Source: Pedinophyceae sp. YPF-701
Taxonomy: Eukaryota; Chlorophyta; Pedinophyceae
NCBI GenBank assembly: GCA_916048055.1
Contig: CAJZHL010000006.1
Coordinates: forward strand, 372,001-436,000
Reading direction: 5' to 3'
DNA: 64,000 bases
The notes under the pieces are model-generated. The model did no database searches, was not told the origin of the DNA, and saw only the letters and a list, made by a program, of their open reading frames with translations. Of the stretch, positions 4,860-52,679 are shown in pieces (the stretch's first letter is position 1; each line of letters begins with the position of its first letter). A program made the translations under genes and the position numbers.

Positions 4860-4979
4860 CCGGCTCCCACAGCGGGCAGCGATCGCGGACGCGTCACACG
4901 TGCCGCCGTGCCAGCAGTACCAGCCGCGCGGTCGCAGAGGGTCGCACCAGGGCGCGGCGTGTGACATGAGTCCTCGCCC

Positions 4980-26500: not shown

Positions 26501-29430
26501 TCATGGGGGCGCAGCAGAAGGACCAGGAGAAGAAGGAGGAGCAGGGGGAGAAGAAGCCGTTGGAGGAGGAGTCGAAGGGTGTGGAGATGGAGCAGGACTT
26601 CGAGGGGGAGCTGCATGACGTCAGCAGCGACGAGGAGGAGGACGACGGAGGGGAGAAGGACGAGGGCGATGACGAGCAGCGCCTGGACCAGGAGATGGGC
26701 GACGCGGGCGACGACGCCGAGGACGTGGACGAGAAGCTGTGGGACGGCAACGAGGAGGACGAGGAGGACGGGCCGCGGAAGGACGCGGGGTACGACCGGG
26801 ACAACGCGGTGGGGAAGCGGGAGGGCGCGGACACGGAGATGGTCGCGGGGGAGGACGACGGCGGGAACGAGGGCGGCGGGCCGGAGGAGGAGGGTCCGGA
26901 GGGCGACGGCAAGGACGAGGAGCAAGGCGGGGGGGCTGAGGAGGTGGGCGGGGACGAGGAGGGCGAGGAGGGGGAGGAGGGGGAGGGGGTGGTGAACGAG
27001 GAGGTGGCGGGGGGCGAGGAGGACGAGGGGAACCGCGTGAGGCCGGAGGAGCCGGAGCAGGAGATGGAGCTGCCGGACGACATGGAGCTGGACGCGGACG
27101 AGGCGGGGGAGGCGGCGGTGGACGAGGGGGGCGACGGTGGCGAGGAGGAGGGCGACGGGGGGGTCAAGGATGAGGGGGGTGGGTTCCCAGAGGGGGAGGA
27201 GGAGGAGGAGGAGGAGGGGGGGGGTTGGAGGTGGCGCAGGAGGGGGGTGAGGGACAGGAGGAGGAAGAGAGGGATGGGGAGGATGGAGGTGGGCAGGGGC
27301 CTCAGGGGATGGAGGTGGACGGGGCGGAGGAGGAGGAGGAGCCGGACGTGGGTGAGGACGAGGGGGCGGATGCCGCGGCGCAGGCGGCGGCGGGGGAGGA
27401 GCCGGGCGAGGAGGACGCGGTGCAGGCGGGGCCGGCGGGGCAGGCGTCGGCGGCGGCGCAGGCGTCGGCGCGGCCGGCGGGGGCGGCGGACGGCGGCAAG
27501 GGGGAGCAGGCGGAGGACGCCAACGGCACCGAGGCCGGGGTGGACGCGGGGGCGGTGGCGCAGCAGAGCGCGGCGATGGAGGCGGCGGAGATGGCGCAGC
27601 AGTCGGCGCAGGGGGCGGCGGAGTCCGGGGCGCGCGGCGCGAAGGCGCGGGCGGCGGGCGGCGGGGAGCAGCAGCGGCAGCGGCAGGAGCCGTCGCAGGG
27701 CATGGGCGAGGCGAACCCGTTCCGGTCGCTCGGCGACGCGATGGAGCGCTGGCGGGCGGACCTGAACATCACGGGCGACGCGGAGGAGAAGGGGGCGGGC
27801 GGCGAGGAGGAGCTGGAGGAGAGGGGAGGGGGAGTGAAGGACGTGGTGGCGGGGGAGTACGAGTTCGCGGACCAGGGGGAGCGCGGGGACGCGCAGGCGC
27901 TCGCTCCGGCGACGGAGGAGCAGGCGGGGCAGATGGAGGCGCTGAACCGCGACGAGGGCGACGACGCTGGCGAGGAGGAGGGCGGCGGCGACGAGGACGC
28001 CGTCGCTGCGCCGGGCGCGGAGGAGGAGCCGATGGACGAGGACGACCCTGGGGAGGTCAGGACCGGGCACGCACCGAGCCGTCTGGCGGGACAGAAGACG
28101 GGCGTGGAGCCGCGCGGCGCGGACGGTGACGAGAAGAAGGACAGGGACGGGGACGTGGCGATGGACGGCGACGACGAACAGGGGGACGAGGAGCTGGCCG
28201 GCGAGGACGGCGCTGGGGATGAGGAGAGGCTCGAGTCCCTGGTGGAGGTGCGCGCGGGCGAGCTGGCGGGCGGCGCTGCGGACGGTCGCGACGAGGAGCG
28301 CGCGGTGTCCGAGGCGGTGCGCGGCGCGCTGACGCCCGAGGAGGCCGAGGCGCTGCGGGCTGGCCTGGAGCGCAAGCTCCAAGACGCGGCCGCGGGCGCC
28401 GCGGCCGCGGGCGACCTGGGAGCGGCGCGCGAGATGTGGGCGCGGTGCGAGGCGCTGACGTCCGCGCTGTCGGGCGAGCTCGCGGAGCAGCTGCGGCTGA
28501 TCCTGGAGCCGACGCAGGCGACGAAGCTCGCGGGGGACTACCGCACGGGCAAGCGGCTCAACATGCGGCGCGTCATCGCGTACATTGCGTCGCGGTTCCG
28601 CAAGGACAAGATCTGGATGCGGCGTACGCGGCCGGACAAGCGGCGGTACCAGGTGGTGCTGGCGGTGGACGACTCGCGCTCGATGGCGGAGCACGGGTGC
28701 GGCGGGTTCGCGATGGAGGCGCTGGCGCTGATCTCGCGCGCGCTGATGCGGCTCGAGGTGGGGGAGTTCGGGGTGGTGTCGTTCGGGGGGTCCGGGGCGG
28801 TGGAGCCGCTGCACCCGCTGGACCGGCCGTTCACGGACGCGGCGGGCGTGGACGTCATGTCGCGGCTGCGGTTCGACCAGGACAACACCATCGACGACAA
28901 GCCCATGGTGTCGCTGATGACGTGCCTGATGGACATGCTCGACGCGGCCCGGGAGCGCGTGGCGACAGGTGAGCGCGTTAGATGAGCATTGATCGAGCGC
29001 CTGAGGAGCATGATACTCGCGTTTCTAGCTCGTTTGACCACGTGCTGTATGTTTGACAAGGCTGAACGGTTGGAGATCACCAGCGAGCTTTGTTTGGTGT
29101 TTTACTTGGCGCGCAGGTGGAGCGGAGACGCTGCAGCAGCTCGTGCTGATCCTCGCGGACGGGCGGCTGCACGAGAAGGAGGCCCTGCGTCGCGTCGTGC
29201 GCGAGGCCGCCGAGCGTCCCGGCGTGGTGTACGCGTTCATCATCCTCGACAGCTCCGAGTCCTCGCTGCTCGACCTGCAGACGGTGGCGTTCCGGGGAGG
29301 GAAGCCGGAGTTCACGCGGTACCTCGACAGCTTCCCGTTCTCGCTGTACGTGGTGCTGCGGGACATCGCCGCGCTGCCCGCGACGCTCGCCGACCTGCTG
29401 CGGCAGTGGTTCGACCTGACGTCGCGCTGA
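11525..29430 (+). CDS. MDN1: Midasin, giant six-AAA ATPase of 60S ribosome biogenesis (one frameshift in a G run)
   Basis: Model join(11525..11650,11996..12461,12608..28968,29117..29430), about 5,755 aa if one base is restored at 27216-27224. Six AAA modules show Walker A motifs: GPPGCGKS (about residue 318), GETGTGKTT (694), GPTSSGKTS (1117), GETGTGKTT (1425), GSPGVGKTT (1844) and GPAGTGKTA (2178). Walker B motifs such as WIVLDELNLAP and WVLLDELNLAG follow; in AAA6 it reads WVLLDNANM, a degeneration I recall from yeast Rea1 too. Then come a long helical linker, a highly acidic D/E-rich region (about 26370-28400) and a C-terminal MIDAS domain with the DxSxS metal site in AVDDSRSM (about residue 5552). 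Midasin strips assembly factors (Ytm1, Rsa4) from pre-60S particles. The last intron (28969-29116) lies within the MIDAS domain. A partial copy of the 3' end lies 12 kb downstream. Confidence 0.95.
27216..27224 (+). other. MDN1: Frame break at a run of nine G in the midasin acidic region
   Basis: Upstream coding is in one frame up to the Glu run and Gly codons. The stretch after the G run turns into an Arg/Trp-rich read-through unlike midasin, while a shifted frame resumes an acidic sequence (LEVAQEGGEGQEEEE) and runs on to the MIDAS domain. One missing G, or two extra, would heal the gene. A homopolymer error is the simplest explanation. A 12-nt GT...AG segment just upstream is far too short to be an intron. 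Confidence 0.8.
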
Positions 29431-29564
29431 GCGATCATGCCAGCGATTTATTTCGATGATTTTACAAAGAATTCGTCACAAGGACCTGTCCCTTGAACTG
29501 TGACAGTTCCAGCAGGGCATGCGGCTGCCCGATCCGGTCATGTCCCTCCGATGATACATTCAGT
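29431..29564. other. Short gap between the midasin stop and the X1 stop
   Basis: About 130 nt separating two convergent genes. Composition drops abruptly from very GC-rich to roughly balanced here, marking the left edge of the accessory region. Confidence 0.5.
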
Positions 29565-31563
29565 TCATGAGGAATACTCTGCTTCGAACATGCCCCACGC
29601 TTTGAAGAGCCGTGCACAAGTCCCAACAGCAATGCACAGCATCGAACACTCATAGTTCAAGCCATGTCGCGCGGACATCACGTGTGGCGCGCGCTGCCAC
29701 GCAAAGCAATGCACGCACTTCACTTCGCCCTTGTACTTGCTCAGCCTCTTGTTCACGCGTGATTCTTCTAGGTATTCGGACACTGCCCGCTCATCCTGGA
29801 GGTTGGGATTGAAGATGCACGCCGCGTCGTCTTCGCGGTAAGCCTTGCCCCACCTCAATTTTGTCGCATGCAGCACGTCGTAAGAGTGCATTTTTCGGCG
29901 TTCCGGTGCATCCGACATCTGCAATAACAAGACATGATTTTTTTATGGAATCTAGAGCGCAGGCAGAAACCTGGCCGCATCTGTGCTCTATGGAGAAGAA
30001 AATCATTTGATATCCGCAAGCCAGAAGAAGCGGCCGTGCGGCCAGCCCGTGCACGAAGGAGTGAAAATGACGTACCGCAGCAAGGAGAATGGTCAAGGCG
30101 TGCTCGGTTGCCGCATTGACCTGGAAATCAATCATGGAACAGTCGAGGATCCAAGGCTTCCCAGTCGCTGCGCATCCCTGCAGCTTCTTCTCCTCCTTCT
30201 CTCCAGCCAAGATCACTTTAACATGGGGCATCCGTGTGTGCTCGTGGAGATGGCAAGACTCCGAAGAGTGTTCCGAGCCGCAGACCTTAAACCACTTGAC
30301 AGTATCTCCTGATTTCGCTTCGTTGCTCGTTTCAGCGTTCATCTCGGCTGCTGGAGTACTCGTCTTCTGCCTTTTATGAGCCCCAGGCGTCGTGCCACCC
30401 GTCTCCTTTTGGCTCGTTTTCAGCTTCGCCTGCAGCACATCCCGCGGTGAGCAACTATCGGGCGGACTTCGTCCCAAGCCTCGATTCGGGATGCGATGTT
30501 GCATCGCGATCGGCGCCTACATACAGCACTGCGCAAGCCCCAACCGTACCCTCTGCTTCGCGCTGAGCAACATGCTTATGTTTCCCGACTGATCTGAGTC
30601 GCACCGGCAGCTGACAGCTGCTGCGGCTCACGGTGCAAGCGTTCTGTGGGCGCAAAGTGACTTCTTGCCAGCATGTGTGTTGCCTCGCGGGAACCAACCT
30701 TGTTGAACCAGGCGTGGATGACCCGATAGGCGTAAAGGGTGCCCTGGGGGAATAAATTGAGCACGTCTTCCCTCGAAGGCATAGCAGGAAATGACGCCTT
30801 TCTTGCCCTGATCCACCCGCCGGGCCCGCTTGGACCACATCGTTGTTTGCTATCCCCCAAGACATAGACCAGCTTTTTGCACACCTTGATGACGCTGTTC
30901 CTGTCGTCGGGGGCGAAGGGCTGTTCGTCCTTTCCGTGAACCAGCAGCTCGCGCAGCGGCGTGAAATCGTGCCCTGGAATCGCAGACAGGAACGTGTCGA
31001 CGGGACATGGGCAGCTGCTGAGCTCCAGATCGTCGATGATCAAGTCAGGCGTAGCGGTCTTCGTATGGGGCAGCTGGTCATCTAGTGCATGCTGGAAAGT
31101 CTGTTCCTTGTCAAGTTGTTGCACAAATCAAGCATGGCACGTGGGCGGGGACGCAGCGGTGTCTTCTGCAGCCGTCATGCGATTCAGGTCGGGGCCACGC
31201 ACGTATCACGTTGCTCCAGACTTGAGCTGCGCAATATCGAGGTGGCGATGTCGCGCCAGGATGTCCCGCCTCGCGGGCGATCAGATCGGGGTCATCTGTT
31301 CCCAAAAGCTTCTTCAGTTCCGCCACAGCTTCTCTTTCGCATGGCTTGAAGCCATCGTGGTCCGATGGTAGCCAAGCCAGGAGACTCGGATGCGGAGCGC
31401 AGGGTTCGCCTTCCAGGGGCTGAGCTTGTCCGCTTGAAGCGTTCGGGACACTATTGCCCCCAGTCTCCTCGGGGCTGCGCGGTGCGTTGTGAGCGAGCAG
31501 AGTATCCAGCGACACGCGGACATCGCGAGCGCGCAACCCACTGCCAAACTCGTCGCCGCTCAT
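29565..31563 (-). CDS. Unrecognised multi-exon protein X1 (paired with X2), CxxC...CSMLC motif
   Basis: Family not recognised. Exons (minus strand): about 31190-31563 (acidic start MSGDEFGSG), about 30600-31090, about 30440-30076, and 29918-29565. The last intron is firm: donor GTACGT after 30076, acceptor TTGCAG before 29918, phase 0. X2 has the same intron at the same place in the alignment. Blocks shared with X2: HDFTPLRELL, then GTLYAYRVIHAWF, then WILDCSMIDF, then a C-terminal CVHCFAW...CSMLCIAVG with spaced cysteines that could bind metal. No reverse transcriptase, transposase or kinase motif is visible. GC content is much lower than in midasin. It is head-to-head with ARM1, about 1.2 kb apart. 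Inner exon ends are approximate; a broken copy is possible. Confidence 0.55.
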
Positions 31564-32764: not shown

Positions 32765-35700
32765 ATGGCGCAGGTCGACGGGGCCACAAAAGAGCCCGTG
32801 GGCTCACGATCGGCAGACTATATTTATGCGCTGGCCGCCGCGGGCGACGACGACAGCGCCCGTGCAGCGAGCCAGGCCCTTGCCCAGCAGCTGCATGCGG
32901 CCCGCACCCAGGAGCGTTGGTGGGCCGCGGCGGCAGGCGGCAGCGACAAGCACTTGCGGGGCTTGTACAAGGCGACTGCGGTAGCGCTGCAAGCGGCGCG
33001 GCGCGACGACACTCGGGCCGGGCTCGGCGAGCTGGTGGCGGAGCTGCTGCTGCAAGTGGATGTGGCGGAGGTGGCGGACGATGGCGAGCGGCGCGATGCG
33101 GCGTGCGCGGCGGGCGTCATGCGGGGGCTGACGGTGGCGCTGCGGAGCGCTGCGGAGTCGGAGGCGTGGGCGGCGCTGGCGCGTGCGGTGCGGCGGTTGC
33201 TAGGCCCGGGAGGCGAAGAAGCCGCGCGGCTGCAGAAGGCGGGGGTGATTAGCCTCGAGGCGGCGCTTTTGAAAGCGCTTGGCAGCGGGCGTGCGTCGGA
33301 GGTGGCTGCGGAGGAGCTCGGCGCAGCGCTGGTGATGTGCTTGCGGCGTGCGCAGGACGAGGACTGGGCGGCTGTGGGGGAGCGGCGCGACGAGGCGACG
33401 ATGTCGGGGGCGGCGTTCGTGGTCGCGGAGGCGCTGCGGGACGTGCGGGGGAACAAGGCGCGAGCGGAGCTGGGTGCAGCGGCTTGGCTGCTGCTTGGCG
33501 AGGGGGGCGATTATCGGTGGCGGAGGGAGCAGGCGGGGCGGACGGGGATGGAGGTGGCGCTGGCGCGGGCGCTGGAGGCGGCAGCTGGGAGCGCCGAGGC
33601 AGCGGTGGGGGGGTCGGGGGAAGCGGAATCAGCCGAGGATGCGATGCACACTCTTGCGCTTGCGACGGAGCTGCTGCTGGCGAAGGAACCGGACGAGGAC
33701 GAAGGTGGGGAACAACGCAGACAGCTGAGGCGGCCGTGCTCTCGGCGGATCGGGGAGGCGGTGCGGCGGGCGAGGGACGCGGCGAGCGCAAGGGGGCAGG
33801 CGAGGGATGTGCTGGAACGGCTGGCACAAGGCCTGACAGGCGTCGGAGGGTTTAGCCCCGTATCACAGACCGGGCAGGATGACGAGCGAAACCATGAGCT
33901 CGCAAGGGCGCTCGATTCTGAGGCAGCTCTCCGCCGCGCACAAGGTCAGCTGGTAACACTTCTGGATAGCCTTCCTACAGAGCTATCATCACTTGTGGGC
34001 TGCATCCGTGCGCTGGCCGCCGCGGGCGACGACGACAGCGCCCGTGCAGCGAGCCAGGCCCTTGCCCAGCAGCTGCAAGCGGCCCGCACCCAGGAGCGTT
34101 GGTGGACCGCGGTGGCGGCAGGCGGCTGCGACAAGCACTTGCTGGGCTTGTACAAGGAGACCGCGGAAGCGTTGCAAGCGGCGCGGCGCGACGCCACTCG
34201 GGCCGGGCTCGGCGAGCTGGTGGCGGAGCTGCTGCTGCAAGTGGATGTGGCGGAGGTGGCGGACGATGGCGAGCGGCGCGATGCGGCGTGCGCGGCGGGC
34301 GTCATGCGGGGGCTGACGGTGGCGCTGCGGAGCGCTGCGGAGTCGGAGGCGTGGGCGGCGCTGGCGCGTGCGGTGCGGCGGTTGCTCGGCCCGGGAGGCG
34401 AAGAAGCCGCGCGGCTGCAGAGGGCGGGGGTGATTAGCCTCGAGGCGGCGCTTTTGAAAGCGCTGGGCAGCGGCCGTGCGTCGGAGGTGGCTGTGGAGGA
34501 GCTCGGCGCAGCGCTGGTGATGTGCTTGCGGCGTGCGCAGGACGAGGACTGGGCGGCTGTGGGGGAGCGGCGCGACGAGGCGACGATGTCGGGGGCGGCG
34601 TTCGTGGTCGCGGAGGCGCTGCGGGACGTGCGGGGGAACAAGGCGCGAGCGGAGCTGGGTGCAGCGGCTTGGCTGCTGCTTGGCGAGGGGGGCGATTATC
34701 GGTGGCGGAGGGAGCAGGCGGGGCGGACGGGGATGGAGGTGGCGCTGGCGCGGGCGCTGGAGGCGGCAGCTGGGAGCGCCGAGGCAGCGGTGGGGGGGTC
34801 GGGGGAAGCGGAATCAGCCGAGGATGCGATGCACACTCTTGCGCTTGCGACGGAGCTGCTGCTGGCGAAGGAACCGGACGAGGACGAAGGTGGGGAACAA
34901 CGCAGACAGCTGAGGCGGCCGTGCTCTCGGCGGATCGGGGAGGCGGTGCGGCGGGCGAGGGACGCGGCGAGCGCAAGGGGGCAGGCGAGGGATGTGCTGG
35001 AGCGCATCATGTGGGCGATGGCATCTAACATCACACCTGGAGTGTCGCTCGTCGAGCATGCTGCAAGGACGGGCACCACTGAAGTTCTTCGCATGTTGTT
35101 TGCGGCTCTCGTCGCGGCGCTTGTAGAAGATACGCCTGCGGACACGGAGGTCAGCCTCGGATGCAGCACGGTGACAGGGATAGCAGGGGCAGTGTGGAGA
35201 GCCTGGGCTCAAGGTTATCAGGGCGCCGCTGCTAAAGCACTTTGCCTTGCAGGATTCGAAGTGCTGCTGGCGGAAGGTCCTGTCGAAGGCCGAGGAAGCG
35301 ATGCAAGGGTGCGCGCGCTTGCGGCGGCGATCGCCAAAGCCCTCCAGGTCGCTTCAATTCAGGATTCCACCACGATCGTTCTGGGCCTCGCGATCAGTCA
35401 CCTGATCACCAGCGCGGAGACGACAGGGGCGAAGCGGACAGTCATCGGCGCAGCGCGTGACGCGGGTGTGGAGACCTTGCTCGCGGGAGCACTCAAGCGG
35501 GCGCGGAACGATGAGAGCAGAGCAGTGCTTGCCGGAGCTGTGTGTGCTGTGCTCACGGACGACGGAGTGTTGGCGAGCGAGCGGCTGGCCGCAGCGCACA
35601 AGGCGGGTATGGAGGTAGCGCTGGCAGGGGCACTGCGAGAGGCTCGGAGCGACGACAGCAGGGCAGCGCTTGGGCTTGCAGTGAGGAACCTGCTCGGCGG

Positions 35701-38415
35701 GCCGGCAACGGAAGACGCGCGGCGGGACGCGGCGCACGAGGCGGGCATGGAGGCAGCGCTGGCGGGCGCGCTGCGGGCGGCGGCGAGCGACGACAGCAGG
35801 CGGGCGCTGGGAGAGGCAGTGGGCAACCTGCTCGGCGGCGGCGGGGCGACGGAAGACGTGCGGCGGGACGCGGCGCACGACACGGACATGGCGGCAGCGC
35901 TGGCGGCCGCTGCGGGCGGCGGCGAGCGACGACAGCAGGGCGGCACTTGGCGCGGCAGTGACAACCTGCTCAGGCGGGGGAGACGGAACACGCGGCGGGA
36001 CGCGGCGCACGAGGCGGGCATGGAGGCAGCGCTGGCGGGCGCGCTGCGGGCGGCGGCGAGCGACGACAGCAGGCGGGCGCTGGGAGAGGCAGTGGCCGGT
36101 CTGCTCGCTGCCGGCGGGGCGACGACGGGTGCGCGGCGGGACGCGGCGCACGAGGCGGGCATGGCGGCAGCGCTGGCGGGCGCGCTGCGGGCGGCGGCGA
36201 GCGACGACAGCAGGCGGGCACTTGGCACGGCAGTGAGGAACCTGCTCGGCGGCGGCGGGGCGTGGGCGGTGCTGCGGCGGGACGCGGCGCACGAGGCGGG
36301 CATGGAGGCAGCGCTGGCGGGCGCGTGGGGCGGCAGCGACGACAGCAGGCGGCGCTGGAGAGGCAGTGGCCGGTCTGCTCGCTGCCGGCGGGGCGACGAC
36401 GGGTGCGCGGCGGGACGCGGCGCACGACGCGGGCATGGCGGCAGCGCTGGCGGGCGCGCTGCGGGCGGCGGCGAGCGACGGCACGAGGCTGGTGCTGGGA
36501 GAGGCAGTGAGCAACCTGTTCCCTGTACGCCGCTGGGCGTGTGCGCGGCGGGCGGCGGCGAGCGGCCACAGCAGGCGGGCGCTGGCAAAGGCAGTGGGCA
36601 ACCTTCGTAGAAGCGGCGGGGCGGCGACAGACGACGCGCGGCGGGACGCGGCGCACGACACGGACATGGCGGCAGCGCTGGCGGGCGCGCTGCGGGCGGC
36701 GGCGAGCGACGACAGCAGGCGGGCACTTGGCACGGCAGTGGGCAACCTGCTCAGAAGCGGCGGGGCGTCGATGGAAGACGCGCGGCGGGACGCGGCGCAC
36801 GAGGCGGGCATGGAGGCAGCGCTGGCGGGCGCGCTGCGGGCGGCGGCGAGCGACGACAGCAGGCGGGCGCTGGGAGAGGCAGGGAGATGCTTGTTGTTCG
36901 GCGGCGGGGCGACGGCGGGTGCGCGGCGGGACGCTGCGCACGAGGCGGGCATGGAGGCAGCGCTGCGGGCGGCGGCGAGCGACGGCAGCAGGCGGGCGCT
37001 GGGAGAGGCAGTGGCCGGTCTGCTCGCTGCCGGCGGGGCGACGACGGGTGCGCGGCGGGACGCGGCGCACGAGGCGGGCATGGCGGCAGCGCTGGCGGGC
37101 GCGCTGCGGGCGGCGGCGAGCGACGACAGCAGGCGGGCGCTGGGAGAGGCAGTGGGCAACCTGCTCAGAAGCGGCGGGGCGACGGAACACGCGCGGCGGG
37201 ACGCGGCGCGCGAGGCGGGCATGGAGGCAGCGCTGGCGGGCGCGCTGCGGGCGGCGGCGAGCGACGACAGCAGGCGGGCGCTGGGAGAGGCAGGGAGATG
37301 CTTGTTGTTCGGCGGCGGGGCGACGACGGGTGCGCGGCGGGACGCGGCGCACGAGGCGGGCATGGAGGCAGCGCTGCGGGCGGCGGCGAGCGACGACAGC
37401 AGGCTTGTTGTTGGCTGGGCAGTGAGCAGCTGGTTATCTGGCGACGGGGCGACGGCGAGTGCGCGGCGGGACGCGGCGCACGAGGCGGGCATGGAGGCAG
37501 CGCTGGCGGGCGCGCTGCGGGCGGCGGCGAGCGACGACAGCAGGCGGGCACTTGGCACGGCAGTGGGCAACCTGCTCAGAAGCGGCGGGGCGACGGAACA
37601 CGCGCGGCGGGACGCGGCGCGCGAGGCGGGCATGGAGGCAGCGAGCAGGTTGCTCACTGCCCGGCCCAGCGCCCGCTTGCTGTCATCGCTCGCTGCCGCC
37701 CGCATCGCGCCCCCCAGCGCTGCCGGCGGGGCGACGGAAGACGCGCGGCGGGCCGCGACGCACGGGGCGGGCATGGAGGCAGCGCTGGCGGGCGCGCTGC
37801 GGGCGGCGGCGAGCGACGACAGCAGGCGGGCGCTGAGAGCGGCGAGGAGCAACCTGCTCAGGTCAGGCGGGGCTGCGGCGGACGAGTGGGGGGCCGCGGC
37901 GCACGAGGCGGGCAAGGAGGCAGCGTTTGCGGACGATTGGGTGGCCGCGGCGCACGACACGGGCATAAAGGCAGCGCTCGCGGACGGCGGGGAGCGACAA
38001 CAGCAGGAGGGCGCTGGTCCTGACAGTGAGGAGCCTGTTCGTTTGCCGCGGGGCGACGGCGGGCGCGCGGCGGGACGCGGTGCACGAGACAAGCATTGAT
38101 GCAGCGCTGGTGGGCGCGCTGCGGGCGGCAGATATCGACGACAGCAGGGAGGCATTGAGACGGGCAGTGAGCAACCTGCTCGTAGGCCACGGGCCGGCGG
38201 CGGACGCGCGGCGGGACGCGGCGCACGAGGCGGGTATGGAGGCAGCGCTGGCAGGCGCGCTGCGGGCGGCGGCGAGCGATGGCACCGCCGGGGAGTGGCT
38301 TTGGGACATTTCGTTCAGGAGTGCAAACCATTTCGCCTACAGGTTTTGCGCTCTGTCTCGTACTCGAAGTACATGCTACGCTCTACGGCGACGGATTTAC
38401 AGTGTTCGGTCGTGA
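32765..38415 (+). CDS. Alpha-helical tandem-repeat (ARM/HEAT-like) protein ARM1, frame broken in the repeat array
   Basis: Open from 32765 to 36610 (1,281 codons); the coding signal then continues in a second frame (36366-38099) and a third (to 38415). The N-terminal half is built of degenerate helical units (AALGxAVxxLL-type pairs with DARRDAA linkers) and contains an internal direct duplication of about 1 kb. From about 35600 on it is a run of near-identical units of about 47 aa (141 nt), core GMEAALAGALRAAASDDSRR then ALGEAVGNLL, as in armadillo or HEAT solenoids, usually protein-binding surfaces. Related along its length to ARM2 (45086-48727). The frame breaks sit in units with small deletions (about 35905-35985, 36316-36360, 37920-38040). 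They are either consensus errors in a repeat or true decay. No catalytic motif, signal peptide or membrane segment seen. Confidence 0.6.
32831..33816 (+). repeat. Internal direct duplication in ARM1, first copy
   Basis: This block of about 986 nt recurs at 34013-35001 with very few differences, including one 3-nt insertion (GCGGTGGCGGCAGG against GCGGCGGCAGG). Both copies keep the reading frame. After the first copy the sequence diverges into about 200 nt of unrelated sequence. After the second it continues into the part that matches ARM2, so the first copy is the inserted one. Confidence 0.9.
34013..35001 (+). repeat. Internal direct duplication in ARM1, second copy
   Basis: Partner of the block at 32831. 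It runs from the CTGGCCGCCGCGGGCG start to GATGTGCTGGAGCG, then joins the segment (HVxxGVSLVEHA-like) that is collinear with ARM2. Confidence 0.9.
35600..38280 (+). repeat. Tandem array of about 19 near-identical 141-nt units
   Basis: Successive units begin at about 35717, 35858, 35994, 36135, 36276, 36408 and so on, mostly 141 nt apart, with some 129-nt units that lack the LAGA codons. Units are more alike than is usual for protein solenoids, which points to recent expansion or homogenisation. Several units carry 1-2 nt deletions that change the frame. Confidence 0.92.
37643..37720 (-). repeat. 78-nt inverted half-unit inside the ARM1 array
   Basis: The reverse complement of 37643-37720 reads as the missing part of a unit (ALGGAMRAAASDDSKRALGR then AVSNLL). 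The left and right borders are normal unit sequence and the length equals that of the segment it replaces. Because 78 is a multiple of three, the plus-strand frame stays open through it, but the helix pair is replaced by an unrelated Ser/Leu/Ala sequence. Confidence 0.9.
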
Positions 38416-38791
38416 GGCGACAACGTCGCGCTTTTGTCGGCGTTTGAGCTGTGATGTTGCAGGCAGCGCGTCACGGGTAGCACAACCCCCACTGTGAACA
38501 TCAAAGGCAGTTGAAAGGGGCTGGGAAATGGGTCACACCACCACACTGGTGCGCACCGGTCCCGACCGGCGGCAGGGTGACTGGGGGGGTTATCATCAAA
38601 CGCCCGATGTCCACGTGGGGATGAAAGCGCGAGGTAGCGCCCAGGTCTCCAAGCACGCGACCGGGGACTCGAGGGCGCACGGGCGCCAAAGCGAGAGTCG
38701 CGCGAACGGGGCGGCGCGGTGCGAGGGAGCGGGGTCGGCACGTCCTCAACCCGACCTGCTATGTTATCGTGGAGCCATCCACATCAACGGC
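38416..38791. other. Intergenic region ARM1 / Y1
   Basis: About 375 nt between convergent genes. No supported gene; the overlapping open frames here have no recognisable features. Confidence 0.4.
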
Positions 38792-39691
38792 TCACGGGCG
38801 ACCCTCCACACGCCTCGAGCCGTCCCTGTTATACTTCACCAGGAGCATCCCGATCGCCTCCCGCGACAGCACCATCCCCGGCCACCGCGCCCCCGACCGC
38901 ACCACGAAGTCGCGGAACCCCTCGTTCAGCTCGTACCCGAGGTGCGCCGTAGACGCCCGGTTCCGCCCCCGGAAAAAGACCTCCATTACGTACTCGAATC
39001 GCTCCTCGACGCTCCCGCCCTCCGCCAGCCGCTCCATGGCATCCTGTAGCGGGACGTCATAGTTGGGCCCCACCCGGTGGCCCGCCCACAGAACCGAGTG
39101 CACGCCCCTCACGACCTCCTCGACCAGGCGGGGCACGAAAATGCTGGGCGCCGCCCCCAGCAACGCCGGCGGCATCCCGGCAGGCAGCACCTCCCAAAAG
39201 ATGATGTTGTCCTCCTTCGCGAGGCAGTTCACGCTAGGCCTGCGATCGAAATGCACCGTCTGCCCCGCCGAGACCACGGGGCACGGCTGGTCGTCGGGGT
39301 CGCAGCCGCACAACATGAACGCCGCGTTGGTCTTCGCATGGACTTGCAAGTGCCCCGCAGCCCTCTTCTGCGCCTCGCTCATACCCGCAACAGCCCCCGG
39401 ACGCAGCGCAGGCCGCTCTGGAGCGACCATGCCAACAGCGGGCGTACCCACGCTGTTCACGTCGCTGCCCACGTCGAGTGGACTCCCTCTGTCCCACGCC
39501 ATCTGCTCGCAGACATCCAGGTGCCGTGCACTTCCGTCATCGAAGGCCCAGGGGCCGCTGGCGCTGTCGCTGGGCCTGGAACGCAATGCCAATGGCAGTT
39601 GGTCGTTGACCAGGACTCCGTCGATGTCCACCAGGATCTCAAACTGGTGCTCACCACCGGGCAGGTCCATCAGCAGCCCGTCGTCACTCAT
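38792..39691 (-). CDS. Unrecognised 299-residue protein Y1
   Basis: Single-exon frame read from the ATG at 39691, chosen because Y2 begins the same way (MSDD) and has the same length, although the frame stays open further upstream. Both proteins have 299 residues. The N-terminal third is acidic and diverged; from GMSEAQKRAAG on, Y1 and Y2 are almost the same, with a C-G-C-D-P-D segment, QTVHFDRRPSVNCLA, NIIFWEVLPAGMPPALLGAA, FVPRLVEEVVRGVHSVLWAG and EVFFRGRNRASTAHLGYELN. No known family, signal peptide or membrane helix recognised. It is convergent with ARM1. The strong protein-level conservation against a diverged N-terminus suggests a real gene. Confidence 0.65.
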   Translation of the reverse strand: MSDDGLLMDLPGGEHQFEILVDIDGVLVNDQLPLALRSRPSDSASGPWAFDDGSARHLDVCEQMAWDRGSPLDVGSDVNSVGTPAVGMVAPERPALRPGAVAGMSEAQKRAAGHLQVHAKTNAAFMLCGCDPDDQPCPVVSAGQTVHFDRRPSVNCLAKEDNIIFWEVLPAGMPPALLGAAPSIFVPRLVEEVVRGVHSVLWAGHRVGPNYDVPLQDAMERLAEGGSVEERFEYVMEVFFRGRNRASTAHLGYELNEGFRDFVVRSGARWPGMVLSREAIGMLLVKYNRDGSRRVEGRP

Positions 39692-40717: not shown

Positions 40718-41900
40718 CTGGACCGGCCGTTCACGGACGCGGCGGGCGTGGACGTCAGGTCGCGGCTGCGGTTCGACTGGTCGCCGTGCGCGGGAGAGAC
40801 CTGTGCCACGCGCGCCGGCACGAGCGTCCCGCCGCGCGTCGTGCAGCAGACTGGCCCCTGCCACCGCGCGTGGACCCAGGTGCAGCCGGCTGGCGTGGAC
40901 GACGCAAGACACCCCCGGGAGACACTTTGTGACCCCCCGGCTCACTGTCTGACAGTGTCAGCCGGCTCAGGCGGACCGAGGGGCCGCGCATCCCCGCCTG
41001 GGCCTGGCTGACACTCTCGACGCTCGCGTCGTCGTCTGCCTGGAGGGCAACGGTGGACGGACTTCTCGCGGAGTACGCTATCGTCAACACTCGCACCTCG
41101 GTCTCCTGTGTGGCGCGCGGCTCGGACGAGCGCTCGACCTCGACCCGCGGACCACCGGATGCGACCCAGCGTGCTCGCGAACGCCCTCAAGTCGGAGATG
41201 GCCGCAGGCGCGCTCGCGAGCGCCACGAAGACATGGAGATCACTGAGCTGCGAGCGCCGGCGCGCTCCCAAGCGGAGCCCGGCATCATGTCGCGCCGCGG
41301 CTCACGCTGCGCCCCGGGCCGCCGACTCAAGTCTTCCTCCGTGCGCCCTCCCGGGCCCGGAGTCGCATCCACGAAATGAAGCTGCACGTGCGGCGCCTAC
41401 GGGGCGCGCTCGGCTCTGCGCCGCGTAGCTGCCGGCCGAAGTGCATGTCCATGCTGTCGACGCGGCCCGGGAGCGCGTGGCGACAGGTGAGCGCGTGGGC
41501 TGATCTTGATTGAGCGCCTGAGGAGGATCATGCTCGCGTTTCCAGCTCGTTCGACCACTTGCGTTGTTTGGTGTTTTCCTTGGTGCGCAGGTGGAGCGGA
41601 GACGCTGCAGCAGCTCGTGCTGATCCTCGCGGACGGGCGGCTGCACGAGAAGGAGGCCCTGCGTCGCATCGTGCGCGAGGCCGCCGAGCGTCCCGGCGTG
41701 GTGTACGCGTTCATCATCCTCGACAGCTCCGAGTCCTCGCTGCTCGACCTGCAGACGGTGGCGTTCCGGGGAGGGAAGCCGGAGTTCACGCGGTACCTCG
41801 ACAGCTTCCCGTTCTCGCTGTACGTGGTGCTGCGGGACATCGCCGCGCTGCGACGCTCGCCGACCTGCTGCGGCAGTGGTTCGACCTGACGTCGCGCTGA
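40718..41900 (+). pseudogene. Broken partial copy of the midasin 3' end
   Basis: Bases 40718-40778 match the midasin MIDAS region at about 28816-28876 (GGACCGGCCGTTCACGGACG and on; the Met codon of GTCATG is now AGG). About 670 nt of unrelated sequence replaces the next 50 nt. From about 41452 the copy resumes at the end of exon 3, keeps the GT donor and the AG acceptor of the last intron, and repeats the last exon nearly exactly. A 4-nt deletion (CCCG of CTGCCCGCGACG) near 41851 shifts the frame and truncates the protein. With no AAA part and a frameshift it cannot make midasin. Confidence 0.92.
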
Positions 41901-42179
41901 GCGAGTGTTCGGGATGTCCGTTTCGGATGCGATGATTCAAGCTGTTGCCTGTGCGAGTCCGTTGATAACCCTGGCGAAGGCGACCGCATGTCTGTGAAAT
42001 ATAATCACAGGAGGCGCTTGCGCGTCACTCACTATGGCTCTCGTACCAGCCTCGAAGAGTGAGAGCTCTGCGATGTGGCAGCAAGCCGCTGCCGCGTCAG
42101 ATCTCTGCGAACGCCCTGTTCAACGGCGATGAGCGAGGCGCAGAGGCTGTGCACTCCTAAACTTGACTAAGAGCAGCAT
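41901..42179. other. Gap between the midasin fragment and X2
   Basis: About 280 nt of moderate GC content. The similarity to the sequence after the true midasin stop fades within a few tens of bases. No gene seen. Confidence 0.4.
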
Positions 42180-43951
42180 TCAGCGCCCGATTTTTTCCGC
42201 TCTCTGAGCCGGCCGATCTTGGACCATTTTCCACGCTCTGTGCAGCCGGCAGCAAAGCCCGACGGCGACGCACAGCATCGAGCAACGGTGATGTAGCGGG
42301 TCCTCTTTCATCCTCAGAGCATAGTCCTCCCACGCGTGACAGTGAACGCATTCGACCTTGCTTTTTGGCGCCCTCACCACTCGAGCAGCATCCGCCGCTT
42401 CGTTTGATCTAGCCAACTGCTCGGCCCACTCATCGATGGTGTTGCTGAGATTTTCATATGTGCCGATCTCTGCGCGATCCTTAGCGCCCGACATCTGCAC
42501 GACAAAGACCTCGCTTCATCGACATCGCGCTTCGCAATGGCGCTGAACACCGGGTGCTGCTGATACGTGGTTCGACCGATAGTGCGCTATCATGTTGCTC
42601 GATCGTCCTTGCGCCCCTTAACGCCAGACCGCGCGCGGTAAGAACAGAAACCAGCAAACGACGTATGGGAGCCATCTGGACAGGTATCGCATGCGAGGGT
42701 GCATGTGTCATACTTGGACAGTCGACTCACCACAGAGAGGAGGATCTTGTGCAGGTGTCCCTTCGCCGCCGTTTTCGAAAAATGGACCATCGAACAGTCG
42801 TATATCCACGTCTGATCCTCACCAGGGTTCCCCGAAACGTCAACGCGACTGTCCGAATTAGATGACGGTACCTTGCGCGTGAACTCCTGACGTTCCTTGC
42901 TGACTGCCTGACCTGAACACAGCTTGAACGTCCCGCCACGTGATGTGTTCTGCTCCAGAAAGACGGAGGGGGAAAACGCGTTTCGGATTCTAAATTCGAA
43001 GACAGCTCGCGGCAGTACTTCGTTTGATCATGAGACTTGCGCATCCGCGAACGCACGCCGTCATCGGCCTGGGAACGTACTGGGCTGTTAGCTCTCGACC
43101 ACTCCTTGACAACGTGGTAGGCGAAGTCGGTTCCGCGGGGAAACGTTGCCAACAATGCTTTTCTGTCGGGGGGTTTGTTGTCGTGGTTGTCATACCACAC
43201 GTCGAGCCATACGGTGAGCCCCGCTCCGCGTCCACTTTCATCGCCTAGTACTCGCTCCCGGATCGTCAACGTCGTTTTCTTTTTCTTGCGTTCACGACGT
43301 TCGCCCATCAGCAGCTTGCGCAGATTTGTAAAGTCGTGGTTCCCTGCACACATTCACATTGGGAAGCGACATGACTCGCCGATCAGAGCTTGTAGACTCC
43401 GCACCATCGTAACGCACGACCACGGAAGCAGAATACGGGCGTAGAGCGCTTGAAACAACATCAGCACACAACAAACAACTGTGTCACGTGTTACGTGAAA
43501 CTCAATGTTCCTGTTTAACCAGCCGCACTTCCGCAAGCAACCGCCATCGCTGAATGTATCGATAGTTCGCGATCGCACCTAGAGTGTCGGCCCAGATGGA
43601 GCGGGCATCACGATGCGGTGGTTCTCCCTTCCTCAAGAACTCCAGCAGCTGTGCAGCCGCGGAATTATCTTCTTCCCGGTCGAACCCCTGTTCAGGGGGG
43701 AGCCCGAAACGTGCAAGCGCATCTACGAGCGGCTCCGGCTCGCCATCCCCGTTCTGAGGCGCAGTGTTGTGCCCGCCAGAATCATCAAAGCTTGCGTCAG
43801 ATGCGGCGCCCCCCTCGATTCGCTCATCCAGAGCTCCATCCAGGTCCATGTCAACGTAGGAAATCTCGCTGAATATGTCACCTCCGAAGACACTATCTTG
43901 TGCGCTCATCGCTGGTGACCCGGACGGGGGCGAGTGCTCGGATTCTGACAT
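42180..43951 (-). CDS. Unrecognised multi-exon protein X2 (diverged paralogue of X1)
   Basis: Family not recognised. Exons (minus): about 43535-43951 (acidic, MSESEHSPPSG), from 43343 down to about 43070 (NHDFTNLRKLLMGERRERKK and on), about 42920 to 42731, and 42494-42180. The final intron (42495-42730) has a GTGAGT donor and GTGCAG acceptor, phase 0, exactly where X1 has one (ILLSV|MSGAK against ILLAA|MSDAP). Shared blocks with X1 are (N/G)HDFT-LR-LL, then WIYDCSMVHF, then a C-terminal CVHCHAW...CSMLCVAVG. The proteins are otherwise strongly diverged. Lower GC than neighbouring housekeeping genes. The start was set at 43951 by analogy with X1; an in-frame ATG at 44026 also exists. It is head-to-head with ARM2. 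Confidence 0.55.
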
Positions 43952-45085: not shown

Positions 45086-48000
45086 ATGTCTGTCAACTCT
45101 AGTGCTGGAGAGGCACGCTTAGAGCGCTCGCCCCTCAGGGAGTGCATGCGCGACCTGGCTGATCCCGGAGACGACGACGCGGCTCGTCGTGCTCTCGCAG
45201 CCTTCGAGCGGCAGCACCAGGCGGTCCGCGGCGACCGGCGTTGGTGGGAGGAGGTGTCGCGCACCGACAACAAGTTGCGGGGGGCGTTCGACGCCGCCGT
45301 GGAAGCGCTGCGGGCAACACGGCGCGACGATGCTCGGGCAGGTCTGGGCGCGCTGGTTGCGGACCTGTTGCGGCCGGTGTATGTGCCGGGCATTGCACCA
45401 GTGGGGGAGAGGCGCGACGCAGCGAGCGAGGCGGGCATGCTCAGGGCGTTGGCGGTGGCGCTGCGCAGAGCGGAGACATCACGAGCGCAGGCTGCACTGG
45501 CGCATGCGGCGCGGCGGATGCTGGCACCGGGGGGGAGGGAGACGGCGCGTTTGCAGGTGGCTGGGCTGGTGAACCTGCAGGTCGGGCTGCTGGAAGCTCT
45601 GGAAGCCGGCACAGCTTCGGACGAGGAGATGACGGAGCTTGCCGGGGCGATGGTGCAGTGCTTGCGGCGGGCTGACGGGGAGGATCTCGAGGCTGTCGGG
45701 GTGCGGCGCGACGAGGCAGCGATGTCAAATGGGGCGCTTGTGCTGGGGGAGGCGCTGCGGGACGCCCGGAGCGACGCGGCGCGGACGGAGCTTGCGGCTG
45801 CGATTGGTCTGCTGCTGGGGCCGGGGGGCGACGTGGGGGCGCGGCGGGAAGATGCGAGAGATACTGGGCTGGAGATGGCGCTGGCGCGGGGGCTGGAGGC
45901 GGTGGTTGCGGGGGCGGCGGGGCGTGTGGAGGGATCGGCGGAAGCGGAGACGGCAGAGGGGGCGATGAAGGCGCTGGGCGTGGCGATGGAACGGCTGCTG
46001 ACAGAGCCGGGTGGGGGGGGAGGCGGGCGACGCCGCAGGAAGACGCTGCGACCCATCTCGTGGCGTGTCGGGGAGGCGGTGCTGCGGGCGAGGGACATGG
46101 CGCGTGGGGGAGGCCACGCGCGGACGGTGCTGCATCGCCTCGTGTGGGCGATGGCACTCGACGTCGCACCTGGTGTTGCCCTCGTCGAGCACGCTTGGAT
46201 GACGGGCACCATTGAAGTCGTCGGCATGCTGGTCACGGTCATCGCAAGGGCGGTTCGGGAGGATTCGTCGGTGGGCAGTGGAGCCAGTCTTTGGGAAGGT
46301 GCTGTGGCGGAAATTGCCGAGGCGGTGAGGAGGGCCTGGGCCCGCGGCCATGAGCAGGGCGAGGCTGCCAAAGCGCTGTGTCGTGCGGGCTTTGAAGTAC
46401 TGCTGGCGGGCGGCCCCGTCGAAGGCCCGGAAAGCGATGCAAGGGTGCACGCGCTCGGGGCAGCTCTAGGTCAGGCGCTCAAGGTCGCTGGGGTTCAGGA
46501 TGCCACGACGGCCACGCTGGGCCTGGCGATCAGTCACCTGGTGAACAGCGCGGAGACGACAGGGGCGAAGCGGGCAGTCATCAGCGCAGCGCGTTTCGCC
46601 GACCTGGGGGCTGTGTGCCAAGTGCTAGCAAGCGCCCTGGTGGAGGCCGGATGCGACAAGGACAGGGCAGCACTTGCCGATGCTGTCCGTACTCTTCTGG
46701 CGGATGGTGAAGTGGACATCGGCGAAAGCCATATGTTGGCAACGGCGCTGCATCACGCGCTGCAGAGGGCGGACAGCGATGAGAGCGTGAGGGCCATAGG
46801 CAATGCTATCGACTCGTCGTTCGGTCGCGGCGGATCGACAGGAGGCGTGCGGGGCGACGCGGCACGTGCGGCGGGCATGGAGGTGGCGCTCGCTGGCGCA
46901 GCCAGAGAGGGTGGGGTCATGAACGATGCTGAGATGCCAGGACCGTCGACATACAGCGATCTCCGGGGAACGGATCAAGCGATATCGCAGAAGGCATCGG
47001 CGGAGCTTTTCAGCTACAAGCCACGCCCAGCTCCGCAGCTCGGACGACGGGAAGACAATTTCTCGGCGGATGCAACCAGTGTGTTCTCCGAAGGGTCGAC
47101 TCTCAGACCTCAAAGGTCCAGCCCGATCCTCAAAATACTTGCGGCAGGGTTCGTGCAGGCCCTGACGCTCGATTTGTCGGATGACATGAGGGCGGACGTC
47201 AGCGAGAAGACCGTGGCAGAGGTCGCCACGGAACTACAACTTGTCTCCAAAAATCACTCTTCGCGCGGGGCAATATCAGTCGCACTGTGTATGTCAGTGT
47301 GGAACATGCTGGACGCCGAAGGGCCGGCCTACGAATCGAAGGAGTATGCACTCGCTGCGTTGATGATTTGTGCACTTGAAATCGCGCAAGTCGGGGAACG
47401 AATCGAGATCCTTGGCTCGGCGATTGACACGCTCATCATTCTTGCTGAGCACTTCGGATGCTCACGAGGAGCCGTGAACGACGCGTTGCACAGGGCGGGC
47501 ATGGAGGCAGCGCTGGCGGAAGCACTGCGGGAGGCGAAGAGCGACAGCACCAGGGAGGCGCTCGGGGGCGCAGTACGGGACCTGCTGCTCAGCGGCGGCG
47601 AGACAGATGACGCGCGGCGGGATGCTGCGCACGAGGCCGGCATGGAGGCAGCGTTGGCGGCCGCACTGCGGGAGGCGTCAAGCGACGACAGCATGGAGGC
47701 TCTCGGAGGTGCAGTGAGCAACCTGCTGGGGGCAGGTGGGGCAAAGTACGACGCGCGCCTCGACGCGGCGCACAAGGCTGGCATGGAGGCGGCGCTGGCG
47801 GAAGCACTGCGGGAGGCGAAGAGCGACAGCACCCGCTCGGTGCTGGCTTGGGCAGTGAGCAGCCTCCTGACGTGCGCTGGAGAGACTGAGGCAGCGCGGC
47901 TTGATGCTGCGCACGAGGTCGGCATGGAGGCGGCGCTGGCGGCAGCACTGCGGGAGGCGTCAAGCGACGACAGCATTGAGGCTCTCGGAGTAGCGGTGAG

Positions 48001-48727
48001 CAACCTCCTCACGTGGCGTCAAGGGCGGCCCTCGGGGGCGACGTACGACGCGCGGCTTGACGCGGCGCACGAGGCCGGTATGGAGGCAGCGCTGGCGGAA
48101 GCACTACGGGAGGCGGAGAGCGACAGCACCAGGGAGGCGCTCGGAGGGGCAGTGAGCAACCTGCTGCAGAGAGGTGGGAAGACTGAGGATGCGCGCCTTG
48201 ACGCGGCGCACGAGGCCGGCATGGAGGCGGCGCTGGCGGCAGCACTGCGGGAGGCGGCCAGTGACAGTAGCCGGGAGGCGCTTGGAGGTGCAGTAAACAA
48301 CCTGCTCGGGGAATTAAACGGGGCGAAATTTGACGCGCGGCGGGATGCGGCGCACGCGGCAGGTCTGGCAGATGTACTGGCAGAAGCTTTGCGGGAGGCG
48401 GGGAGCGACGACAGCAGGCATGCGTTGGCAGGTGCGCTATGCAACTTTTTGCATGGTGATGGCCCCACTTCTGGCGCAAGGCTTGACGCAGCGCACGCGG
48501 CAGGCGTGATGGCAAGGGTGGTAGAAGCGCTGCGGAAGGTTGCGAGACAGGGCGACGCCAAATGGGCGCTGGCCGGGGCAGCTGGCTTACTGCTTGGTCA
48601 CGGTGGGGCGACCGAGGACGCACGGAATGAAGCCGCGAACGAGTTGGGCCTGAACGAGGCGCTGGAGATCTTGAATTCGTCGGAAAGCGACGCCAGCGTC
48701 GGCGAGTCGCTGGAAGCAAGTGCGTGA
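45086..48727 (+). CDS. Alpha-helical tandem-repeat (ARM/HEAT-like) protein ARM2, intact
   Basis: Uninterrupted frame of 1,213 aa from the ATG at 45086 (MSVNSSAGEARLERS). It is collinear with ARM1: the RRWWEEVSRTDNKLRG segment, the DARAGLGALVADLL helices, a Gly-rich patch (PGGGGGGRRRR), WAMALDVAPGVALVEHA, and ALGLAISHLVNSAETTGAKR-type sequence. A unique, less helical insert follows (about 46915-47460, MPGPSTYSDLRGTDQ and on), then about eight units of about 47 aa (GMEAALAEALREAKSDSTRE, LGGAVxxLL), each differing from the next. This is a normal aged solenoid, unlike the near-identical array in ARM1. A protein-interaction role is inferred from the fold; no catalytic motif is visible. Confidence 0.8.
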   Translation: MSVNSSAGEARLERSPLRECMRDLADPGDDDAARRALAAFERQHQAVRGDRRWWEEVSRTDNKLRGAFDAAVEALRATRRDDARAGLGALVADLLRPVYVPGIAPVGERRDAASEAGMLRALAVALRRAETSRAQAALAHAARRMLAPGGRETARLQVAGLVNLQVGLLEALEAGTASDEEMTELAGAMVQCLRRADGEDLEAVGVRRDEAAMSNGALVLGEALRDARSDAARTELAAAIGLLLGPGGDVGARREDARDTGLEMALARGLEAVVAGAAGRVEGSAEAETAEGAMKALGVAMERLLTEPGGGGGGRRRRKTLRPISWRVGEAVLRARDMARGGGHARTVLHRLVWAMALDVAPGVALVEHAWMTGTIEVVGMLVTVIARAVREDSSVGSGASLWEGAVAEIAEAVRRAWARGHEQGEAAKALCRAGFEVLLAGGPVEGPESDARVHALGAALGQALKVAGVQDATTATLGLAISHLVNSAETTGAKRAVISAARFADLGAVCQVLASALVEAGCDKDRAALADAVRTLLADGEVDIGESHMLATALHHALQRADSDESVRAIGNAIDSSFGRGGSTGGVRGDAARAAGMEVALAGAAREGGVMNDAEMPGPSTYSDLRGTDQAISQKASAELFSYKPRPAPQLGRREDNFSADATSVFSEGSTLRPQRSSPILKILAAGFVQALTLDLSDDMRADVSEKTVAEVATELQLVSKNHSSRGAISVALCMSVWNMLDAEGPAYESKEYALAALMICALEIAQVGERIEILGSAIDTLIILAEHFGCSRGAVNDALHRAGMEAALAEALREAKSDSTREALGGAVRDLLLSGGETDDARRDAAHEAGMEAALAAALREASSDDSMEALGGAVSNLLGAGGAKYDARLDAAHKAGMEAALAEALREAKSDSTRSVLAWAVSSLLTCAGETEAARLDAAHEVGMEAALAAALREASSDDSIEALGVAVSNLLTWRQGRPSGATYDARLDAAHEAGMEAALAEALREAESDSTREALGGAVSNLLQRGGKTEDARLDAAHEAGMEAALAAALREAASDSSREALGGAVNNLLGELNGAKFDARRDAAHAAGLADVLAEALREAGSDDSRHALAGALCNFLHGDGPTSGARLDAAHAAGVMARVVEALRKVARQGDAKWALAGAAGLLLGHGGATEDARNEAANELGLNEALEILNSSESDASVGESLEASA
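47490..48630 (+). repeat. About eight diverged 47-aa helical units in ARM2
   Basis: Units of about 141 nt with core G-M-E-A-A-L-A-x-A-L-R-E-A-x-S-D. They have diverged in sequence, and two units have small insertions (a WRQGRPSG segment and an LNGAK segment). They keep one frame throughout. Confidence 0.88.
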
Positions 48728-49022
48728 CCGTCTTGAGCCACCTGCGTAGGTGGCTGACACGCAGTGGCAACGGTGATCTGCGGCTTTGCCGCAAGGGCAG
48801 CCGCAAAGCTGTAACCTCGAATGCGATCAGTTCCGGGCTACGGAGTTGACGGAGACGACACGCCGGGGTGGTATCACACGATGTTGCAATAGACGCACAT
48901 CCTGCATATTCAGCGTGCTATATGACGTGTGCGAAATTGTGTTCTCTGTTCACGTCAATCGAATCTGTCACATGATTCGGCTTTCGCCTAGCGTGGCTTT
49001 CCACGCTTCCTGTGTCGTTGCC
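48728..49022. other. Intergenic region ARM2 / Y2
   Basis: About 295 nt between convergent genes, moderately AT-rich (48880-48980). No gene seen; it likely holds both 3' ends. Confidence 0.4.
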
Positions 49023-49922
49023 CTATTCCTGTTCCTCCACATGCCTGATCCTGGCGCCTTTCCGCCCGTATCTCTGAAGCAGCTCCCCGATCGCCTCCCG
49101 CGACAGCACCATCCCCGGCCACCGCGCCCCCGACCGCACCACGAAGTCCCGGAACCCCTCGTTCAGCTCGTACCCGAGGTGCGCCGTAGACGCCCGGTTG
49201 CGCCCCCGGAAAAAGACCTCCATTACGTACACGTACCGGTTCCTCGCGCTCCTGCACCCCGCCAGCCGCTCCATGGCATCCTGTAGCGGGACGTCATAGT
49301 TGGGCCCCACCCGGTGGCCCGCCCACAGAACCGAGTGCACGCCCCTCACGACCTCCTCGACCAGGCGGGGCACGAAAATATTCGCAGCCGCCCCAAGCAA
49401 CGCCGGCGGCATCCCGGCAGGCAGCACCTCCCAAAAGATGATGTTGTCCTCCATCGCGAGGCAGTTCACGCTGGGCCGGCGGTCGAAATGCACCGTCTGT
49501 CCCACGGAGGCCACGGGGCACGGCTGGTTGTCGGGGTCGCAGCCGCACAACATGAACGCCGCGTTGGTCTTGGCGTGTACCTGCTTGAACCCCGCAGCCC
49601 TCTTCTGCGCCTCGCTCATACCCGCAGCGTTCCCCGGACGCCACTGAGGCCGCGGAGCAACGCCAAGGTCGTATATAGCCACGCTGCCCACGTCGCCGTG
49701 TTCCTCCAGAGGACTTCCGCTGTCCCACGCTATCAGTTCATCGATGCCAAGGTCGGCGTGTTGTGCGTCCTGGACAGCCCAGAGGTCGCTGAAACTGTCG
49801 ACTTCGAGGTGCAGCGTCAATGGCATGTCGTACAGCTCGTCGCCGACCAGGCGTCCGTCAATGTCCATCATGAACTCGTCCCCGCGTGACAACGGGAGGT
49901 GCCCGCGCCTATCGTCACTCAT
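49023..49922 (-). CDS. Unrecognised 299-residue protein Y2 (paralogue of Y1)
   Basis: Single exon, 299 aa, starting MSDDRRGHLPLSRGDEF. The C-terminal two thirds nearly equal Y1 at both DNA and protein level (about 49080-49620 against about 38850-39390). The N-terminal third aligns only loosely (DIDGRLVGDEL against DIDGVLVNDQL). Contains HAKTNAAFMLCGCDPDNQPC, VHFDRRPSVNC and EVFFRGRNRASTAHLGYE. Family not recognised. It is convergent with ARM2, as Y1 is with ARM1. Confidence 0.68.
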   Translation of the reverse strand: MSDDRRGHLPLSRGDEFMMDIDGRLVGDELYDMPLTLHLEVDSFSDLWAVQDAQHADLGIDELIAWDSGSPLEEHGDVGSVAIYDLGVAPRPQWRPGNAAGMSEAQKRAAGFKQVHAKTNAAFMLCGCDPDNQPCPVASVGQTVHFDRRPSVNCLAMEDNIIFWEVLPAGMPPALLGAAANIFVPRLVEEVVRGVHSVLWAGHRVGPNYDVPLQDAMERLAGCRSARNRYVYVMEVFFRGRNRASTAHLGYELNEGFRDFVVRSGARWPGMVLSREAIGELLQRYGRKGARIRHVEEQE

Positions 49923-50076
49923 CGCAGCCGGCTTTCGCGCTCAGCTGACGCAACGAGGCTCGCCGGGCGTGCCGCAACGCGCGGAAGACGCGCCGACTGC
50001 CCGGATCGCTCTGCACCAGCCGCCAGGCCAGCTGGTTGCGGCCGGTGCTGCTGGCCAGCTGTGCTGCACTCCCTCG

Positions 50077-50960: not shown

Positions 50961-50979
50961 ACGGCAGTGTCTGACTCGG

Positions 50980-52628: not shown

Positions 52629-52679
52629 GTTGAGGTGGTCATGCTGTTGTGCCAGTGGCGGGTGGCAGTTCGTTCGCAG

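Follow-up and report, generated by a model that had tools for sequence, protein, structure and literature searches.

Two unevenly diverged tandem copies of a midasin 3' end-X-ARM-Y unit in a pedinophyte green alga

In yeast, the HML, MAT and HMR cassettes have similar flanks and diverged interiors. The GOT1 paralogs of Tigriopus are reported to show interlocus gene conversion with islands of divergence (PMC3728101), and in Ostreococcus tauri a low-GC region, proposed as the mating type, is reported to exist as two haplotypes that are highly divergent (PMC7016971). Here we describe a locus of Pedinophyceae sp. YPF-701 in which the 3' end of the midasin gene and three further genes, X, ARM and Y, are present twice, with strongly unequal divergence along the two copies. 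The locus lies in a stretch of 64,000 nucleotides (the window, whose positions are used below) on contig C6 (1,082,935 bp) of a 27.9-Mb, 32-contig assembly, and its neighbours are of the housekeeping type according to Pfam: a RIO-domain protein, a UDP-glucose pyrophosphorylase-type protein, midasin, and a DBP10-type helicase. An LHC protein encoded by this genome has its best matches among CP26 chains, the top one from Chlamydomonas, which points to a green alga of the chlorophyte type.

Two copies on one contig

The order and orientation claimed in the first-pass annotation, namely midasin 3' end, X (minus), ARM (plus) and Y (minus), are confirmed for both copies, which lie on one contig and whose gene starts and stops were checked on the sequence. 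The features of copy A and then of copy B are:

29117..29430, plus strand: last exon of midasin (MDN1), copy A, the end of the long midasin gene (sequence)
29565..31563, minus strand: X1, predicted four-exon gene of low GC (splice sites predicted from the DNA, without RNA)
32765..35577, plus strand: ARM1 N-terminal domain, duplicated internally (sequence)
32827..33819, plus strand: first arm of the internal tandem duplication of ARM1, 98.2% to 34009-35004 over 996 bp (self-BLAST)
34009..35004, plus strand: second arm of the same duplication (self-BLAST)
35578..38300, plus strand: ARM1 repeat array of 141-bp units with several frame changes (sequence)
37644..37724, minus strand: 81-bp segment in the ARM1 array, inverted relative to the ARM2 units (minus-strand matches in self-BLAST)
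38792..39691, minus strand: Y1, intact frame of 299 aa (sequence)
40718..40777, plus strand: midasin fragment of 60 bp, 98% to 28818-28877
40776..41449, plus strand: dispersed-repeat piece that occupies a 56-bp gap of the midasin fragment (sequence comparison)
41450..41904, plus strand: midasin 3' fragment of copy B, frameshifted (self-BLAST, alignment)
42180..43951, minus strand: X2, predicted four-exon gene of low GC (splice sites predicted as for X1)
45086..48727, plus strand: ARM2, intact frame of 1213 aa with the N domain and 47-aa repeats (sequence)
49023..49922, minus strand: Y2, intact 299-aa frame starting at its ATG (sequence)

In a self-BLAST of the window, 28934-29434 pairs with 41450-41904 (midasin tail), 32887-33822 and 34161-35458 (both arms of ARM1) each pair with 45211-46594 (ARM2), and 38841-39735 pairs with 49078-49968 (Y). 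X1 and X2 have no match at all in this DNA comparison and pair at the protein level only, where a permissive blastp aligns three blocks at 30-31% amino-acid identity (best E 7e-16); they are homologous and as strongly diverged as had been claimed. As read from the sequence, each gene has four exons, arranged alike; the first exons are weakly homologous (0/7 codons identical in a weak alignment), and the last exon keeps paired cysteines, C-x2-C and C-x3-C, in both copies.

The tool used for searches of the whole assembly scores the best candidates only. Among the matches listed, Y has two, namely Y1 and Y2; the X1 and X2 queries have five exon matches each, all at the X1 and X2 loci; and ARM2 has 29, of which the 19 outside C6 all fall within query residues numbered at least 790, in the repeats. 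Also among the matches listed, the midasin 3' end (query 28700-29434) is found at three places (the gene itself, 41450-41904 and 40718-40777), and X, Y and the ARM N-terminal domain have no match outside the two copies. The assembly holds two homologous copies in tandem. Directly upstream of Y2 there is a second local duplication, 50076-50964 with 52679-53576 (82% over 50076-50748/52679-53360), which overlaps the beginning of an open frame on the minus strand (51552-52832) and may be 5' DNA shared by both genes. On contig C3, three weak LHC-family matches with equal scores lie close together (2163957, 2167104 and 2169455), perhaps as a recent tandem triplication.

The long midasin gene, whose lid domains have Pfam matches in 12007-17000, marks the left edge of the unit. 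In copy B its tail has a 4-bp deletion that shifts the reading frame, an intron shorter by 46 alignment positions, in several pieces, and a stretch of 56 bp swapped for a 672-bp piece of a dispersed repeat, with a few bases in common at the joins. Of four other copies compared with the repeat seen at 40776-41449, three extend past both ends of this piece; members occur on C8, C3, C32, C6, C12 and other contigs, and those on C8 and C3 agree at 95% across some 2.5 kb. As for ARM, three frames read by eye place frame changes in the ARM1 array at about 35.9, 36.0, 36.3 and 38.0 kb, so that ARM1 is not clearly intact. The small clustered deletions in single ARM1 units could be consensus errors of the assembly, which would account less easily for the 81-bp inversion.

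Uneven divergence and base composition

Because unequal protein constraint could by itself make nucleotide identity uneven, codons were compared only at positions with identical amino acids, with correction for codon usage and with bootstrap 95% intervals; X exon 1, with its weak alignment, and the last Y stretch (7/11 identical) were left out, and three X exons were used. Retained silent identity is 1.00 in the last midasin exon (83/83 codons identical), 0.81 (0.71-0.90) in Y 120-282, the Y core (127/140), 0.49 (0.27-0.70) in the N-terminus, Y 1-120 (40/55), 0.38 (0.28-0.48) in the ARM domain (171/270), and 0.05 (-0.15-0.24) in X (26/65). The five segments differ strongly (chi2 101.5, 4 df, p 5e-21), and this bears out the expectation of the first-pass annotation that one simple duplication would have left uniform divergence. 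Since the divergence is uneven at silent sites, protein constraint alone is insufficient to explain it. ARM differs from the Y core (p 6e-10) but not from Y 1-120 (p 0.22). X differs from ARM on the full alignment (p 0.0007), whereas the firmly aligned X blocks, with 18/36 codons identical, do not (p 0.14); a greater age of X relative to ARM is therefore not secure and is not claimed here.

Within genes, identical codons are clustered both in Y (permutation sum-of-squares p 0.003, longest run p 0.02) and in ARM (p 0.006 and p 0.01, respectively). Change-point analysis of Y1 versus Y2 finds two change points (LRT 126 versus a maximum of 33 in 60 codon shuffles); DNA identity in three successive stretches of Y is 65%, 93% and 54%, and an exact run of 121 nt lies between diverged stretches. 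The last midasin exon is identical at 311/312 sites (99.7%) apart from the 4-bp deletion, and the adjoining intron at 92/105 aligned sites with 46 gap positions in addition; silent differences in the exon (0/68) and differences in the intron (13/105) are unequal (p 0.002). The claim of nearly identical flanks thus stands for the midasin exon and for tracts in Y, but is too strong for the central Y stretch as a whole, at 93%. Outside these parts, the DNA beyond the midasin stop codon is unalignable between the copies, the midasin-X, X-ARM and ARM-Y gaps are no more similar than shuffles, and the DNA upstream of Y1 and Y2 is at most slightly similar (4/200 shuffles score as high). Along the unit, stretches of low silent divergence alternate with highly diverged ones, the pattern that gene conversion would leave. 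In ARM1's own 1-kb duplicate, the silent changes between the arms are 5/64 and then 5/210 (p 0.057), an uneven split that is only suggestive.

Base composition also varies along the unit. Five of the 64 non-overlapping kilobases of the window have less than 60% GC, compared with 0/138 distinct ones from 41 other loci, which were picked via gene searches and not at random; all five are at 29-31 kb or 42-45 kb, where they lie within X1 or X2 or immediately adjoin them. Overlapping windows give 10/127 here and 0/303 elsewhere, and at the 500-bp scale ARM2 also has low-GC stretches (47.0 kb, 57%; 48.5 kb, 59%). GC3 is 0.60-0.69 in the X exons, 0.73-0.77 in ARM and 0.83-0.84 in Y, compared with 0.904 in midasin and 0.93-0.97 in three neighbouring genes that have Pfam domains. 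The low GC of a green-algal mating-type locus is therefore seen here, relative to those 41 non-random loci.

Origin of the two copies

Silent divergence differs so strongly along the unit that later exchange is the likeliest account, and the locus is probably an old tandem duplication of midasin 3' end-X-ARM-Y whose edges were later homogenised by ectopic recombination between the copies. The unit would have been duplicated in tandem long ago, the copies would have drifted until their intergenic DNA could no longer be aligned, and ectopic recombination between them (interlocus gene conversion or unequal exchange) would then have homogenised patches, mainly at the edges, in the midasin tail and the Y core. 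X would have escaped homogenisation, and ARM and the Y N-terminus would be left at intermediate divergence, a state that calls for either an extensive early exchange or a rate difference. Among the three explanations offered in the first-pass annotation, gene conversion at the edges fits best, given the silent-site divergence. Because the data are one assembly of a single strain, it is from one pair of copies that we infer conversion as the origin of the tracts, and its direction. The near-identical midasin exon beside a more diverged intron fits recent copying of the exon; it fits also a copy B tail that was functional until recently, with silent constraint, and died recently. The slight residual similarity of the flanks upstream of Y1 and Y2 counts against the duplication with later homogenisation.

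One may argue that a single duplication is enough and that selection and mutation-rate differences along the unit made the divergence unequal, since the Y core could be more constrained, silent sites included, and X, with its lower GC3 (0.60-0.69), may mutate differently. This is very unlikely in view of silent identities that, after correction for codon usage, rise from 0.38 (ARM) through 0.81 (Y core) to 1.00 (midasin exon), and it is not evident why a frameshifted midasin exon would keep its identity next to an intron that has diverged more. A single duplication survives only with strong silent-site constraint in the Y core and midasin, and the silent-codon and change-point tests speak against it. 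It is also quite unlikely that alleles A and B of one locus were chained together by the assembly, the misassembly of two haplotypes that had been offered as another explanation. The truncated midasin with which copy B opens would be expected of a false duplication, but this midasin tail is frameshifted and carries a repeat patch in place of 56 bp, and is therefore no functional allele; X and Y are each at two places, with no third or allelic contig among the matches listed. The 4-bp deletion, the intron shorter by 46 positions, the 672-bp repeat piece and the at most slightly similar DNA beyond Y1 and Y2 all disfavour an artefact.

The third explanation holds that unequal exchange placed in tandem two anciently diverged haplotypes of a balanced locus, be it mating-type-like or other, with X as the selected core and recombination keeping the flanks similar. 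It would account for full-alignment divergence that peaks at X and declines towards midasin and the Y core, and for the restriction of kilobases below 60% GC to X and its borders (5/64 in the window versus 0/138 from the 41 loci), and it has a parallel in the low-GC O. tauri region reported to have two divergent haplotypes (PMC7016971). However, both copies are present in one assembly, the greater age of X relative to ARM is not secure, and the low-GC islands span a few kb and form no large region. Moreover, RWP-RK (MID-type) genes, a mark of green-algal mating-type loci, have 10 listed matches in the assembly, 0 of them on contig C6. Joined haplotypes are thus unlikely. The duplication with later homogenisation remains our preferred account.

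Putative protein roles and comparison with known systems

Profile searches with X, ARM and Y, a check that had been proposed, gave nothing above cut-off or convincing in Pfam, PHROGs, NCBIfam or solved structures. In Pfam, where none of the three has a family above cut-off, ARM2 matches 0 families and the first 1192 aa of ARM1 match three, among them ARM_ARMC5 (11.5 bits), of which none reaches its cut-off. An ARM-like repeat relative on C11 scores 29.9 bits (E 5e-7) with PF25598, the family of the plant U-box ARM repeat region, for which the curated cut-off is 33, whereas ARM2 itself shows no such match; ARM repeats above the curated cut-off were found in none of ARM1 (first 1192 aa), ARM2 and the C11 relative. 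The label ARM is accordingly a putative one, taken from the repeat pattern and the sub-threshold PF25598 match of this relative. On C11, a 1638-aa open frame (L047, C11:250001-258000, frame 1404-6320 minus) consists mostly of similar ARM-like repeats; on C31, another frame (L048, C31:1106001-1112000, frame 2131-4113 plus) has hydrophobic stretches, membrane-like by eye, followed by ARM-like repeats, and is unlike the window ARM genes. Scans with short peptide patterns confirmed no relatives of Y, ARM or X in a viral contig collection (2 to 6 patterns per scan), nor of Y in a genome contig collection (2 to 6 patterns). As a working guess, ARM may be an Armadillo-like binding solenoid that would act with X and Y as a lineage-specific set, the copies diverging in specificity.

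The first-pass annotation had also likened the unit to recognition loci, an idea for which no positive evidence emerged: X, ARM and Y have no Pfam family above cut-off, C6 has no RWP-RK match, and Pfam scans of Y1, Y2, the X1 and X2 models, ARM2, ARM1 (first 1192 aa) and two ARM relatives revealed no NLR-type domain, whether NACHT, NB-ARC or TIR. A literature search on midasin with a mating-type locus or a green alga gave no paper naming midasin among the 8 of 60 listed. It is highly improbable that X1-ARM1 and X2-ARM2 descend from balanced, idiomorph-like haplotypes belonging to a mating or self/non-self system that is still undescribed, now on one chromosome, with flanks kept alike by recombination and X in an AT-rich, recombination-poor island. 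Orphan genes in AT-rich islands beside housekeeping genes make the locus a concrete place to test balanced or sex-linked variation.

In this compact green-algal genome, silent-site patterns separate old divergence from later homogenisation inside one 20-kb locus. The likeness to the yeast HML, MAT and HMR cassettes lies in similar flanks and diverged interiors; in contrast to yeast, the interiors here are homologous and collinear, and there are two copies. With the low-GC mating-type region of Mamiellales (PMC7016971), the window shares low GC and two strongly diverged versions, but it has both versions in tandem in one assembly, its islands are about 2-3 kb, and its contig has no RWP-RK match. 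Compared with GOT1 of Tigriopus (PMC3728101), the green-algal unit comprises three orphan genes and, in addition, the tail of the gene next to them.
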